The notes below the pieces were generated by a model that was not told the origin of the DNA, did not search any database, and saw nothing but the letters and a program-made list of their open reading frames with translations. Shown piece after piece: positions 10,721 through 60,970 of a stretch of DNA of 64,000 bases (positions are counted from its first letter, which is position 1; each line of letters opens with the position of its first letter). Position numbers and translations under genes: made by a program. Source of the DNA: Cellulosimicrobium protaetiae (GTDB taxonomy: Bacteria > Actinomycetota > Actinomycetes > Actinomycetales > Cellulomonadaceae); assembly GCF_009708005.2 (NCBI RefSeq), contig NZ_CP052757.1, positions 2,852,001-2,916,000 of the forward strand, read 5' to 3'.

Positions 10721-10834
10721 TCAGGCCTGGACCGGCCCGACGGCGTCGCTCACCACGACGAGGCCGACGCCGTCACGGACGGGTGCGCCGGCGGGTCGCC
10801 GGAGCACCACGCCCTGGGCGTGGCCGCGCCGCAC
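10721..10834 (-). CDS. Candidate 37-residue leader ORF embedded in the FMN riboswitch exit
   Basis: A small frame starts at GTG 10834 and stops at TGA 10721, 49 bp before ribD. The aptamer's own 3' end supplies GGGAGGA six bases before the GTG, and the G and T of the start codon are part of the P1 helix. Base composition by codon position (nearly all G/C at position 3, about 57% G/C at position 2) is like the real genes here. The peptide, RRGHAQGVVL at its start and VVSDAVGPVQA at its end, resembles nothing I recognise. It could be a regulatory leader peptide or chance. Confidence 0.4.
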   Translation of the reverse strand: MRRGHAQGVVLRRPAGAPVRDGVGLVVVSDAVGPVQA

Positions 10835-10954
10835 GTGCTTCCTCCCATCCGGACTGTCACCGTCGGTCCTGGAGTTCCACCAGGTCAACCGCGCGTGGGC
10901 GCGGGTCGCGGACTGTCACCGCCGGCTCGGAATTGCACCGACCCCGGAGCACGT
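10833..10954 (-). promoter_or_regulatory. FMN riboswitch (RFN element)
   Basis: Read on the minus strand this region holds the FMN-aptamer hallmarks in order: GGTGCAATTCCGAGCCGG, CGGTGACAGTCCGCGACC, GGTGGAACTCCAGGACCG and CGGTGACAGTCCGGATGGGA. A 7-bp P1 helix closes it (10948-10954 with 10833-10839). It precedes ribD-ribE-ribBA-ribH and should repress them when FMN is abundant. No terminator hairpin is obvious between it and ribD, which favours control of translation. Confidence 0.95.
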
Positions 10955-10982
10955 TCGTGCGTACTGCTGCTTCCAACCGAGC

Positions 10983-13177: not shown

Positions 13178-14464
13178 TCAGGCGACGAGGCCGCGGCGGA
13201 GGTTGGTGGTGCGCTGCTCGACCGTGCGCCAGGCGTGGCGGCTCACGCCCGGGTGGGCGTCGCGGTCGACGTCCGCGAGCGCCGCGAGGAGGTCGTCGAG
13301 GGTCTGCGCGACGGCGCGTTGGGCGCGGCGTCGGGGCAGTCCCCAGGTGGTTCCTTCGGTGACGAGGTCCTCGGCGGTGAGGCGGTCCATGTCGCGGCCA
13401 CCGGCGACGTCCATGGCGAAGACGCGGGAGGCGTGGTCGTGGTGGAGGTGCATGGAGACGTCGTAGGCGGGGGCGAGGCGGACGGTGCCGTCGGCGTGGC
13501 GCAGGACGGAGATGTTCTTGGCGTGGGCGTCGGTGTTGCCGATGGCGAGGTTGAAGGTGGTGAGGGCGAGGAGGGGGTCGGGGCGGGTGCCGTCGTCTCG
13601 GAGGGTGCGGGCGATGGCGGCGAGGGAGGGGAAGCGGCGTCCGTGCTGGAACTTGCGTTCGGGGTCGCGGGTGTTGATGCCGAGGGCTTGTGCGGTGTCC
13701 TCCTGGTGGAGGCGTGCGGTGCCGCCGGGGTGGGTGGGGTCGGGGATGCGGTCGTAGCGGGTGACGACGATGGCGCGTTCGCCGTCGAGCTCGGTGACGT
13801 GGGCGTCGACGGTGGTGAGGCCGGTGCGGCGGGCGAGGTCGAGGGCGGCGGCCTCGGTGTTGACGAGGTCGGCGGTGGGTGAGTCGGAGGGGCGGGCGAC
13901 CTTGAGGATGTGGGTGGTGGGTGCGGTCCCGTGGGGGCGGGCCCAACCGTGCTGGTCGTGGAGGAGGGTGATCTTGGGTTCCATGCCGGGCAGGGAGCTG
14001 GTGAGGTGGTCGGTGCGTCCTTCTCCCCCGCTGCGGGCGACGGCGGCGCGCAGGAGCCGTGCGACGGCGGCGTCGTCGAGGCGTTCGGGAGTGCCGGGGG
14101 CGGGGAGGGGGTGTCCGTCGGGGGCGAGGAGGACGGCGCCTGCGGTGTCGTGGCCGTAGTGGACGAGGAAGGCGAGGGTGTCGTCGGGGTCGATGCCGGC
14201 GTCGATGGCCATGGCGTCGCGGGTGCGGCCTTCGGGGAGGAGTCCGTCGAGCCAGGCGGCGACGCGGGCGGGGTGGGGTCCGGGTTCGTCGGGTGGGGTG
14301 ATGGGGAGCAGGTGGGACAGGACGCGGGCGTCGTGTCCCCAGCGGTCGAGGGCTTCGGTGGTCCAGGTGAGGGTGACGCGGGGGGTGCCGTCGGTGGTGC
14401 GGGTGCCGGTGGGGGCGAGGGTGGCGACGGGGGTGCCGTAGAGCCAGGCGGTGAGGGTGGTCAT
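13178..14464 (-). CDS. hipA: HipA-type serine/threonine kinase toxin
   Basis: A 428-residue HipA family kinase. The N-terminal couple_hipA region (~1-110) precedes the HipA_C kinase core. ATP-site Lys188 lies in THILKVARP. VVTRYDR (~234), LHQEDTAQALG (~252), catalytic NTDAHAKN (N310, D312, H314, K316, N317) and LAPAYDVSMHL (~330) are all intact, so the kinase should be active. Characterised relatives phosphorylate aminoacyl-tRNA synthetases and induce dormancy; the target here is unknown. ATG 14464 overlaps hipB as ATGA, so antitoxin and toxin are coupled. It interrupts conserved rpe-rsmB synteny, suggesting acquisition. Confidence 0.9.
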   Translation of the reverse strand: MTTLTAWLYGTPVATLAPTGTRTTDGTPRVTLTWTTEALDRWGHDARVLSHLLPITPPDEPGPHPARVAAWLDGLLPEGRTRDAMAIDAGIDPDDTLAFLVHYGHDTAGAVLLAPDGHPLPAPGTPERLDDAAVARLLRAAVARSGGEGRTDHLTSSLPGMEPKITLLHDQHGWARPHGTAPTTHILKVARPSDSPTADLVNTEAAALDLARRTGLTTVDAHVTELDGERAIVVTRYDRIPDPTHPGGTARLHQEDTAQALGINTRDPERKFQHGRRFPSLAAIARTLRDDGTRPDPLLALTTFNLAIGNTDAHAKNISVLRHADGTVRLAPAYDVSMHLHHDHASRVFAMDVAGGRDMDRLTAEDLVTEGTTWGLPRRRAQRAVAQTLDDLLAALADVDRDAHPGVSRHAWRTVEQRTTNLRRGLVA

Positions 14465-14688
14465 GGGCGCTCCTGGAGCCGCAGGTCGACGTCGAGGGTG
14501 TCGAGGAGCTCGAAGAGTCGTTGGACCCAGAGGTTCTCGACGCCGTTCTCGAGCTCGGAGAGGTATTGGCGGGTGATGCCGAGCTCGTCGGCGACCTGGG
14601 CCTGGGTGAGGCCGCGGGCGCGGCGTACTCGGCCGAGGTAGGCGCCGAGGTCGCGGGGGCTGCGGGGGGTGGTCCAGGTGTCGGCCAT
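14461..14688 (-). CDS. hipB: HipB-type XRE-family antitoxin/repressor
   Basis: A 75-residue DNA-binding protein, essentially one XRE helix-turn-helix: LGAYLGRVRRARGLTQAQVA, then DELGITRQYLSELENG. It is expected to bind and neutralise HipA and to repress the operon. ATG 14688 follows GGAGGACGC, a good ribosome-binding site. The C-terminal tail (FELLDTLDVDLRLQERP) is short, as in small HipB proteins. The palindromes just upstream are its likely operators. Confidence 0.9.
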   Translation of the reverse strand: MADTWTTPRSPRDLGAYLGRVRRARGLTQAQVADELGITRQYLSELENGVENLWVQRLFELLDTLDVDLRLQERP

Positions 14689-14810: not shown

Positions 14811-16538
14811 TCAGCGCACCTGACGACGAAGGAGCATCAGGTGCATCGCGTCGGTGCCGTGGACGTGGGGCCAGAGCTGGACGTCCTGGCGGCCCCCGAG
14901 CGCGATCACGTCGCGCGCCTCGGGGCGCACGACGTCGCGCACGACCGCCGGGGCATCGAGGAGCTCGACGTCGTCGCGGCGCCGCAGCACGTCGGCGACG
15001 ACGACCTGGGTCTCGGCGAGGTGGGGCGAGCACGTGACGTACCCGACCACTCCCCCGGGCCGGACGGCGTCGAGCGCGGAGTCGAGGAGCTCGCGCTGCA
15101 GCCCGGTGAGGGTCGCGAGGTCGGCCGGGGTGCGGCGCCAGCGGGACTCGGGGCGGCGGCGCAGCGCGCCCAGGCCGGTGCAGGGCGCGTCGAGGAGCAC
15201 GCGGTCGTAGGCGCCGGGCTCGTCCTGCCCGACGGCGCGGCCGTCGCCCGTGCGGACGGCCTCCACGGCGTCGGCCGGGACGGCGGCGAGGGCCTTCTCC
15301 ACGAGTCGCGCGCGGTGCGGCTGGACCTCGTTGGCGACGAGGCGGGCGCCCCGCTCGGCCGCGAGCGCCGCGAGGAGCGCGGCCTTGCCACCGGGGCCGG
15401 CGCACAGGTCGAGCCAGCGGGCGTCGTCGGCCCCGGCGAGGGGTGCCGCGGCGAGGGCGAGGGCGACGAGCTGGCTGCCCTCGTCCTGGACGCCGGCACG
15501 TCCGTCGCGGACGGCGCCGAACGCGGCGGGGTCGCCGCCCTCGAGGCGCAGCGCGGTGGGGGCCCACCGGGAGGGGGTCACGCGGTCGTCGCCGTCGGAG
15601 AGCTCGTCCGGGTCGGCGAGGCCGGGGCGGGCGACGAGCGTGACGCGCGGGGCGTCGTTGTCGGCGGCGAGGAGCGCGTCGAGCTCGGCGACGGGGCGGC
15701 CGTTGCCCGCGAGGGCGTCGCGCAGGGCGCGGGCGATCCACACGGGGTGGCTCTGGGTGGCCGCGAGCGCCGCGAGGTCGTCGGGGGCGTCGTCGGCGAT
15801 CGTGGTGAGCCAGTCGTCGAGGGGGGTGCGGGCGACGCGGCGCAGGACGGCGTTGACGAGCTGGGCGCTGCCGGCGCCGGTGCGCTCGCGCGCGAGCCCG
15901 ACCGTCTCGGACACGGCGGCGTGCTGGGGCACGCGCATGCCGAGGAGCTGGTGGGCGCCGAGGCGCAGGACGTCGAGCACGGGCGGGTCGAGGCGGTCGA
16001 GGGGCCGGTCGAGGCACAGCGCGAGGACGGCGTCGTAGCGGCCGCGCAGGCGCAGGGTGCCGTAGGCGAGCTCGGTGGCGAACCCGGCGTCGCGGCCACG
16101 GATGCCGCGCTCGCGCAGGAGGGGCGGCAGGACGAGGTTGGCGTAGGCGTCGGAGCCGTCGACCTGGCGCAGGACGTCGAACGCGACGGCGCGCGCGGGG
16201 TCGGTGCCCTTGCGGCGCTGGGAGGGTGCGGACGTGCTGCGGGACGAATCGCCGCGCGAGCGGGCGGCACCGCGTTGCCGGCCGCGCGCGTCGCGACGCT
16301 CGTCGTCGCGCCGGGTCCGACCTCCCTCGGCATCGTTCGAACGGACGTTCGACCCGGCGCTCTCCGCCCCGCGCGCCCTCGACGATCCGCTCGAACGCAT
16401 GCTCGAGTCGCGCTCGGTCCGTGCCGGCCCGTCGGCCCGATCGCTCGAACGCGCGTTCGAACCGCCGCGCGCCTGGCCGGCGGAACGCCGGCGGGCGTCG
16501 TCGTCGCGGTCCCGGTGCGTCGGCGTGCCGCCGCTCAT
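14811..16538 (-). CDS. rsmB: 16S rRNA (cytosine-C5) methyltransferase RsmB
   Basis: A 575-residue enzyme. Residues 1-110 are a basic Ser/Arg/Asp-rich tail holding three 18-residue repeats (27-44, 45-62, 63-80). A NusB-like RNA-binding domain follows (~111-250), then the SAM methyltransferase domain, with [14 protein letters not shown] (377-390), catalytic Cys453 in DAPCTGLG and Cys503 in VTCSPH. It methylates C967 (E. coli numbering) of 16S rRNA. The ATG at 16538 overlaps the fmt stop (ATGA). The repeats arise from SOS-box-like palindromes in the DNA. A start after the tail is possible, but no strong site is seen. Confidence 0.92.
16337..16460. repeat. Three SOS-box-like palindromes at exact 54-bp spacing inside rsmB
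   Basis: Copies: 16337-16352 TCGAACGGACGTTCGA, 16391-16406 TCGAACGCATGCTCGA (one mismatch) and 16445-16460 TCGAACGCGCGTTCGA. Two match the actinobacterial LexA consensus TCGAAC-N4-GTTCGA perfectly. Starts are 54 bp (18 codons) apart; sequence between copies has diverged while the palindromes have not. Confidence 0.85.
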
Positions 16539-17488
16539 CGGGCGACCTCCGCCCCGAGCACGAGGTCCTCGGACAGCCGCGCCCCGCGCGCCCAGTCGGC
16601 CGCGGCCATGTGCTTCTTGCCCACGGGCGCGACGTCCCCGAGCCGGACGGCGTGCGTCGCGGTGCCGACCAGCACCTCCTTCTTCCCGGCACGCACCTGC
16701 CCGGGCGCGAGGTCCACGACGTCGGGGCGCGGGGTGACGGGGCCGAGCCCCAGGCGGGCGGGAGCACCGTCGGTGCCCGGGAGGGTCGTCCACGCCCCCG
16801 GGGCCGGGGTGCAACCCCGCACGAGGCGGTCGACCGCGAGCGCCGGGTGGTCCCACCGGACCTCCGCGTCGGCGGGCGTGAGCTTGGCGGCGTGGGAGAC
16901 GCCGTCGGCGGGCTGGGGCTGCGGGCGCAGGGTCCCGTCCTCGAGCGCGTCGAGCGTCGCGACGAGCAGGCCGGCCCCGGAGACCGCGAGGCGACCCAGG
17001 AGGTCGCCCGCCGTGTCGTGGGGGCGGATGGTCTCGGTCGTCGTGCCGAGCGTGGGCCCGGAGTCCAGGCCCTCCTCGATGAGGAACGTCGTGGCGCCGG
17101 TCACCTCGTCCCCGGCGATGATCGCGCGCTGCACGGGCGCGGCACCGCGCCAGGCGGGCAGGACGGAGAAGTGCAGGTTGACCCACCCGTGGCGCGGCAC
17201 GGCGAGCACGTCGGGGCGCAGGATCTCCCCGTACGCCACGACCGGGGCGGCGTCGACGTCGAGCTCGGCCAGGCGCGCGAGGAAGTCCTCGCCGCGGGGG
17301 TGGTCGGTGATCACGGGGATCCCTGCCTCCTCCGCGCGCACGCGCACGGGGCTGGGGGTCAGGCGCCGCCCCCGGCCCGACGGGGCGTCGGCGCGCGTGA
17401 GGACGGCGACGACGTCGTGTCGGGAGTCGAGGAGGGCGTCGAGGGACGGGACCGCGGTATCCGGGGTCCCCGCGAACAGCAGGCGCAT
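16535..17488 (-). CDS. fmt: Methionyl-tRNA formyltransferase
   Basis: A 317-residue enzyme that formylates initiator Met-tRNA using 10-formyl-tetrahydrofolate. It begins [16 protein letters not shown]. The catalytic Asn-His pair is in [21 protein letters not shown] by position, and the Asp is in LDSGP after [10 protein letters not shown]. The C-terminal OB-like tRNA-binding domain follows residue ~205. TAGAAT at 17496-17501 lies 7 nt before ATG 17488, so the transcript may be leaderless and may carry fmt-rsmB. Confidence 0.95.
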
Positions 17489-60142: not shown

Positions 60143-60173
60143 GCATTCGAACAGGTGTTCGAATGCGTGTCAA
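60143..60173 (-). promoter_or_regulatory. SOS box within a leaderless promoter
   Basis: TCGAACAGGTGTTCGA (60147-60162) matches TCGAAC-N4-GTTCGA, within a 10-bp-arm perfect palindrome (60143-60166). On the minus strand -35 TTGACA (60173-60168), a 17-bp spacer and -10 TCGAAT (60150-60145) place transcription start at the GTG 60138. The palindrome covers the spacer and -10, ideal for LexA repression. Confidence 0.88.
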
Positions 60174-60732: not shown

Positions 60733-60744
60733 CGGGCCGAACGC

Positions 60745-60841
60745 CCCCGGGGAGCGCACGAGCGCTGAGAGTGCAGGCCGGACACCCGTCCCACCCGCAG
60801 ACCCGTGGAACCTGATCTGGTTCGTACCAGCGAAGGGAGCA
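60745..60841 (+). promoter_or_regulatory. TPP riboswitch (THI element)
   Basis: Contains GGGGAGCGCACGAGCGCTGA, the CTGAGAGTGC motif, GACCCGTGGAACCTGATCTG and GTACCAGCGAAGGGAGC in order, the conserved THI-box core. A ~130-nt spacer separates it from the first gene; no clear terminator hairpin was picked out there. The ligand (thiamine pyrophosphate) indicates the operon's substrate. Confidence 0.94.
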
Positions 60842-60970
60842 GGGCCGACGTCACCGTCCCCTGCGCGCTCGTGCCAGCGCGCCCTGCGCGCCCGGCCGGC
60901 CGCGCGGGGCCAGGCGGGGGCGCGCCGTCGTGCACCCGTCGACCCGGGGGCCCTGACGGAGGGAACCCGC

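Follow-up and report, generated by a model that had tools for sequence, protein, structure and literature searches.

What purpose could be served by three evenly spaced SOS boxes within the first codons of a gene for a ribosomal RNA methyltransferase? SOS boxes are usually read as switches placed before repair genes, and LexA is a transcriptional repressor. The window considered here, the whole stretch of 64,000 nucleotides of Cellulosimicrobium protaetiae DNA that was analyzed, carries on its minus strand the gene rsmB (14811..16538), encoding a 16S rRNA (cytosine-967-C5)-methyltransferase. The Pfam domains NusB and Methyltr_RsmB-F score above cut-off in its product, starting at residue 114, and matches to the NCBIfam rsmB models fall below their cut-offs. 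The gene immediately upstream, also on the minus strand, is fmt, for methionyl-tRNA formyltransferase (16535..17488; TIGR00460 above cut-off), the stop codon of which overlaps the rsmB ATG at 16538 in the sequence ATGA. The RsmB protein opens with a low-complexity N-terminal extension of about 79 codons (16302..16538, minus strand), and it is this extension that carries the array, all boxes being located within the first 70 codons and upstream of the Pfam domains. Directly downstream of rsmB, at 13178-14688 on the minus strand, are a gene for a HipB-like helix-turn-helix protein and a HipA-like gene.

Relative to the consensus TCGAAC-N4-GTTCGA, the box closest to the rsmB start, at 16445..16460 on the minus strand, is perfect (TCGAACGCGCGTTCGA) and codes for SNARS. 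The second, at 16391..16406 on the same strand, has one mismatch (TCGAACGCATGCTCGA; TCGAGCATGCGTTCGA on the coding strand) and codes for SSMRS, and the third, at 16337..16352, again on the minus strand, is perfect (TCGAACGGACGTTCGA; TCGAACGTCCGTTCGA on the coding strand) and codes for SNVRS. Start-to-start distances are 54 and 54 bp, and all three boxes occupy the same frame of rsmB, read as TCG AAC nnn CGT TCG A, with AGC in place of AAC in box 2. The preliminary description had reported exactly this, two perfect palindromes and one with a single mismatch, spaced by 54 bp at the start of the rsmB coding sequence, and its positions are confirmed. The array thus agrees with the actinobacterial SOS-box consensus in two copies fully and in one copy with one mismatch.

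Such perfect sites are rare in this organism. A scan of its own genome (4.78 Mb) found eight, including the two in the array, and none for a reversed-pattern control; the idea that the palindromes belong to a dispersed genomic repeat was rejected on this count. Sites with up to two mismatches number 18 in the window, compared with a shuffle mean of 2.75 and with none of 100 shuffles reaching 18. Genome-wide there are 679 of them and 173 matches to the reversed control, and loose matches therefore carry no weight in what follows. One of the remaining perfect boxes is in the window itself (60147-60162), just upstream of an intein-containing radical SAM gene of the Rv2578c family, and another perfect site adjoins what appears, by eye, to be a Y-family polymerase gene.

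By their motif, the boxes are putative LexA sites. The lexA family model TIGR00498 has one match in each of five genomes, and upstream of lexA in the window's own genome there are three matches to the motif, with one to two mismatches and none perfect. The ChIP-seq motif of Streptomyces LexA is tCGAAC-N4-GNNCGa (PMC9380542). Because of the matches upstream of lexA and the agreement with the Streptomyces motif, binding of LexA to the array is likely.

The array is a property of the genus rather than of one strain, with exceptions. Protein identities of 90-91% to the nearest named records place that genus as Cellulosimicrobium. It was found in 14 of 17 Cellulosimicrobium genomes, 12 of them by a strict two-box pattern and two, G000 (the genome of the window) and G121, by reading the locus; in G000 the middle box is broken, and G121 has a pair of boxes at 45-bp spacing, one of them carrying a mismatch. 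It is absent from rsmB in G110 and G125, and in G122, counted among the 17 and not among the carriers, rsmB is truncated by a contig end. Absence in close relatives had been named beforehand as an outcome that would tell against a role for the array, and this outcome did not materialize: 14 of 17 genus members carry it, although two genomes are without it. The 14 carriers contribute 14 distinct rsmB sequences, in which the pitch is 54 + 45 bp in 12, 54 + 54 bp in the window and 45 bp in the sequence with two boxes. The earlier view that the boxes are locked at 54 bp thus holds for this strain and not for the genus. The remainder of the extension varies in length and sequence across the genus. 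It is short or unrelated in G110, in G125 and in the fetched records of Isoptericola, Krasilnikoviella, Paraoerskovia and Cellulomonas, and no array was found in the short extensions of those four genera. Sequence QAPD01000125.1 is titled Sphaerisporangium cinnabarinum; its rsmB groups inside Cellulosimicrobium in the rsmB tree, and the record is probably mislabelled.

Within the extension, it is the palindromes that have been retained. In the 12 species with 54 + 45 bp spacing, identity is 98.6% in the half-sites, 47.2% in the linkers and 86.5% over the 900 nt with which the conserved part of rsmB begins, the boxes in this comparison having been chosen by their match, which biases it toward such a result. 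The comparison was repeated on eight three-box species fetched through the RsmB protein, where the pitch set the box positions and any number of mismatches was allowed; it gave 98.6% for half-sites and 48.2% for linkers. Other spacings fit far worse: when nine alternative pitch pairs were tried on eight genus members, even the best triple accumulated 6-18 mismatches in total, compared with 0-1 for 54 + 45 bp.

Codon usage provides a separate view of the same sequences. Copies of the motif were selected by the peptide S-x-x-R-S and not by DNA, giving 41 copies in 14 extensions. Arg is encoded by CGT in 38 of these (AGA, CGG and CGC occur once each), and both Ser residues by TCG in all 41. Among the 716 Arg codons elsewhere in rsmB, 6.1% are CGT, and among the 130 Ser codons, 14.6% are TCG; the parts of the extension not covered by perfect boxes give 7.9% (214 Arg codons) and 29.5% (78 Ser codons). 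Across the 14 rsmB sequences there are 55 invariant Arg columns, 18 of which keep a single codon, and in only one of those is that codon CGT. The counts come from related sequences and are hence not independent; kinship notwithstanding, sufficient time has elapsed for change, since the linkers have diverged. The codon choice points to selection on DNA, and the proposal that selection acts here on DNA rather than on protein gains support from it and from the divergence of the linkers. All 36 perfect boxes in rsmB of the genus are in one frame, with C invariably as the fourth spacer letter. In that frame, T at this position would give Cys (TGT), and C may therefore satisfy both the coding and the binding constraint.

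A second genus, g15, carries a comparable array at a different locus. The family was scanned (221 genomes, 25 genera) for two boxes 36-66 bp apart, start to start, and in a relaxed scan 30-74 bp apart. This pattern requires two unbroken adjacent boxes and misses the arrays of the window (no match in G000), G121, G167 and G169. Matches were obtained in 17 of 221 genomes, 12 of Cellulosimicrobium and five of the seven of g15, with one array locus each, and the relaxed scan returned the same 17; within these pattern limits, neither scan detected an array in the other 23 genera. Draws from the order and from the phylum, which include G000 and some family members, gave 0 of 396 genomes each with the array pattern. 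When the g15 locus was read directly, all seven genomes had three boxes, at 44/44 bp in six and 45/44 bp in one; two boxes of G167 and one of G169 contain single mismatches. Of the 21 g15 boxes, 19 carry T as the fourth letter of the spacer. A GMC oxidoreductase gene and an endonuclease/exonuclease/phosphatase gene converge here, and the array fills the space separating their 3' ends; a threonylcarbamoyl-AMP synthase gene adjoins the locus. Half-sites are 97.9% identical and linkers 35.2%, where 29.2% is expected for random letters of that composition. The linker sequence is near random and yet its length is constant; the pitch itself is therefore kept. The retained pitches of 44, 45 and 54 bp correspond to 4.2, 4.3 and 5.1 turns, and the earlier suggestion that bound dimers would share one helical face is weak. 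In the rsmB tree, g15 groups with Paraoerskovia (98/93, Paraoerskovia being a long branch), and both group more weakly with Cellulosimicrobium (89/81).

What the two loci share beyond the trio and its kept pitch is their position relative to dif. Spaced 15-kb samples of G000 and G117 gave a GC skew too noisy for locating the terminus, and dif was therefore called by sequence, with a pattern adapted from a predicted Frankia site (PMC3025954). Each of five complete genomes has exactly one match, with one mismatch. For 11 draft genomes, the search covered one or two pieces of 20 kb each, located some 20-42 kb from the array; only such distances could be found there, and the complete genomes therefore constitute the open test of distance. 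It was present in 10 of the drafts, the exception being G166 (no site in the two pieces fetched), and overall in 15 of the 16 genomes tried out of 21 with an array; G112, G114, G118, G123 and G167 were left out. With the sign taken relative to dif orientation, the array lies at +30.1, 29.9, 29.8, 27.7, 29.9, 29.8, 29.4, 29.7, 28.9 and 28.1 kb in ten Cellulosimicrobium genomes and at -27.4, -29.9, -28.8, -31.9 and -27.4 kb in five of g15, the two genera having it on opposite sides. Nearness to dif, as would befit a terminus site, is thus seen in all 15 genomes (27-32 kb), with differences of up to 4.5 kb between them. By hand arithmetic, the array is also 8-62 kb from the antipode of dnaA in G000, G113, G168 and G170. 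It is not so placed in G117, where the distance to dif holds nonetheless; there, through rearrangement or assembly error, about 0.77 Mb separates dnaA from dif, whereas the two lie opposite each other in the other four complete genomes.

G000, G170 and G168 share the gene order around dif, in which the two array loci occupy distinct positions. In G170 and G168, rsmB is at +25.4 and +27.9 kb from dif and has no repeats, and in G000 the threonylcarbamoyl-AMP synthase homologue is at about -31 kb and has no array. This synteny, with counterpart loci lacking the array, implies two placements and not one. Two independent random placements both within 30 kb of dif in 4.6 Mb would have a chance of (60/4600)^2, roughly 2 in 10,000, an estimate that is post hoc and concerns two events. 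In G110 and G125, a dif-like site is present and fmt-rsmB is 27-28 kb from it, with no array in rsmB and none elsewhere in the fetched 120 kb; the array is therefore dispensable. The fetched stretches of G000, G170, G168, G110 and G125 yielded no degenerate second array (up to three mismatches, pitches of about 44, 45 and 54 bp), and a search of the same stretches for arrays of other same-arm palindromes gave pairs only. Nor are there multiple sites spread over or flanking the terminus, G000, G168 and G170 having one array each within 120-138 kb around dif.

Neither array occupies the promoter of an SOS gene, one being inside rsmB and the other between convergent 3' ends. A promoter array was rejected: there is no sigma-70-type promoter-like site in 16200-16700 and no TAnnnT hexamer in either array region, the latter being weak evidence in DNA almost without TA. 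An operator function for the neighboring genes therefore appears poorly supported by the sequence. We favor, tentatively and with a slight leaning toward doubt, the reading that the array is a terminus-linked group of LexA operators, preserved for its DNA within coding sequence and not as the operator of its host gene. It is favored because the two arrays have in common the trio, the kept pitch and the place near dif. The element would belong to the chromosome terminus and not to rsmB, which would be a mere landing place, its low-complexity N-terminal extension tolerating the boxes. As long as the DNA is undamaged, LexA dimers bound to the array would form a nucleoprotein complex near dif; upon damage, RecA filaments would induce cleavage of LexA, and the complex would disassemble. 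Damage might thereby alter a process at the terminus, be it the structure of the terminus domain, the timing of segregation, access of FtsK/XerCD to dif or the passage of polymerase. A bolder version, in which LexA doubles as a terminus-binding protein and the pitched trio ~30 kb from dif is an SOS-responsive landmark dismantled by RecA-driven cleavage, strikes us as somewhat unlikely. In recB mutants of Escherichia coli, terminus DNA near dif breaks at cell division (PMC5638614), and a damage-sensitive landmark near dif would be plausible for this reason. The link to the terminus is limited by the number of placements, two only, by its having been noticed after the fact and by the inexact distance. 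Against it may also be set the window copy, with its one mismatch and altered pitch, and the absence of the array, by the pattern used, from G110, G125 and 23 other genera. Idle sites would hardly keep pitch and codons like these.

The most serious competitor, which we nevertheless judge unlikely, is local transcription control, with LexA acting as a roadblock or repressing an unseen promoter and so lowering expression of rsmB and downstream genes until the SOS response; in g15, the array would by the same token limit transcription into or out of the convergent gene pair. LexA does repress transcription, the array follows closely on the junction of fmt and rsmB, which form an operon-like pair, and intragenic LexA sites near start sites are described for Streptomyces in PMC9380542. 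The failure to find a promoter counts against this explanation, albeit weakly in DNA with so little TA and for a search directed at sigma-70-type promoters. The near-random linkers of g15 and the unrelated genes at the two loci also speak against it, and the shared distance to dif would not be predicted. The particular form proposed earlier, control of read-through from fmt into rsmB, may apply and yet leaves unexplained both the g15 array between two other genes and the ~30 kb from dif of both arrays. A different protein might bind the arrays instead, for example a factor that recognizes the terminus through the same palindrome or a borrowed one, and such a binder would suit a terminus location and a non-promoter context that are unusual for LexA. 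The fourth spacer letter, which is C throughout the 36 perfect rsmB boxes but T in most of those of g15, could be read in its favor, although coding can explain the difference. However, the motif matches sites upstream of lexA in the same genomes, and each of the five genomes examined has a single lexA-family match; a binder other than LexA is quite improbable.

Titration, also raised in the preliminary description, would have three strong sites absorbing free LexA and so tuning the threshold of the SOS response, and the array does hold two of the eight perfect sites of the genome. LexA dimers in the cell, however, far exceed in number what three sites could absorb, and storage of this kind would require neither a kept pitch nor a terminus position; it is very improbable. 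Scarcely credible, finally, is that the repeat has no function as DNA and reflects selection on the SNxRS peptide or on RNA hairpins. The single frame of the 36 perfect genus boxes is what a peptide repeat would produce, and the two arms of each palindrome could form a stem of 6 bp. A protein repeat was rejected on the codon choice of the motif and on the g15 array, which is intergenic and has a 44-bp pitch, and RNA hairpins on the imperfect boxes, which are altered in a single arm (e.g. TAGAAC..GTTCGA), the other arm showing no compensating change.

Among known systems, MatP-matS and Tus-Ter of E. coli likewise rely on short protein-binding sites near dif, with host genes that seem incidental. 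The terminus-linked LexA cluster envisaged here would resemble them in both respects, and would differ in being one cluster of three palindromes, without polarity, whose presumed protein is the SOS repressor. To our knowledge, LexA has no described precedent as a terminus landmark. Searches of the open-access literature for LexA together with the terminus or dif, for LexA with Cellulosimicrobium and for tandem SOS boxes turned up no account of such an array; the hits that were checked concern promoters or built constructs. The array has in common with the actinobacterial SOS box its palindrome, the matches with one or two mismatches upstream of lexA and the Streptomyces ChIP-seq consensus (PMC9380542). 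It departs from that box in its three copies, its kept pitch of 44-54 bp, its placement in coding DNA or between convergent 3' ends with no recognizable promoter, and its position ~30 kb from a dif-like site. Three SOS boxes are also found at the recN promoter of E. coli (PMC10714372); that trio serves the promoter of an SOS gene, whereas here no SOS gene follows. For Streptomyces venezuelae, PMC9380542 lists 208 LexA sites within genes, and dnaE2 was the sole gene associated with them to respond to damage, so that binding need not mean function. Those sites, too, are LexA-type sites inside genes; here, by comparison, there is a pitched trio, maintained genus-wide by codon choice and mirrored at a second locus.

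Were the terminus-linked reading true, LexA would mark a place on the chromosome and not merely a set of genes, and DNA damage signalling would be tied in a sequence-specific manner to chromosome termination or segregation. The reading is easily tested, since the boxes can be removed without changing the protein.

A few further observations concern palindromes and elements outside the array. A WYL-domain gene contains a perfect SOS palindrome at G000:C1:2819568, spelled by the codons for an ERMFERD stretch; it may be a protein-driven coincidence. The sequence TCGAGCGGATGTTCGA occurs near dif in G170, G110 and G125, perhaps at the same place as this WYL-gene palindrome of G000. The window also contains FMN and TPP riboswitches, at 10832-10955 and 60738-60857. 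Among viral contigs, 30 have two perfect SOS boxes 20-50 bp apart, and one contig (L203) has two such pairs.
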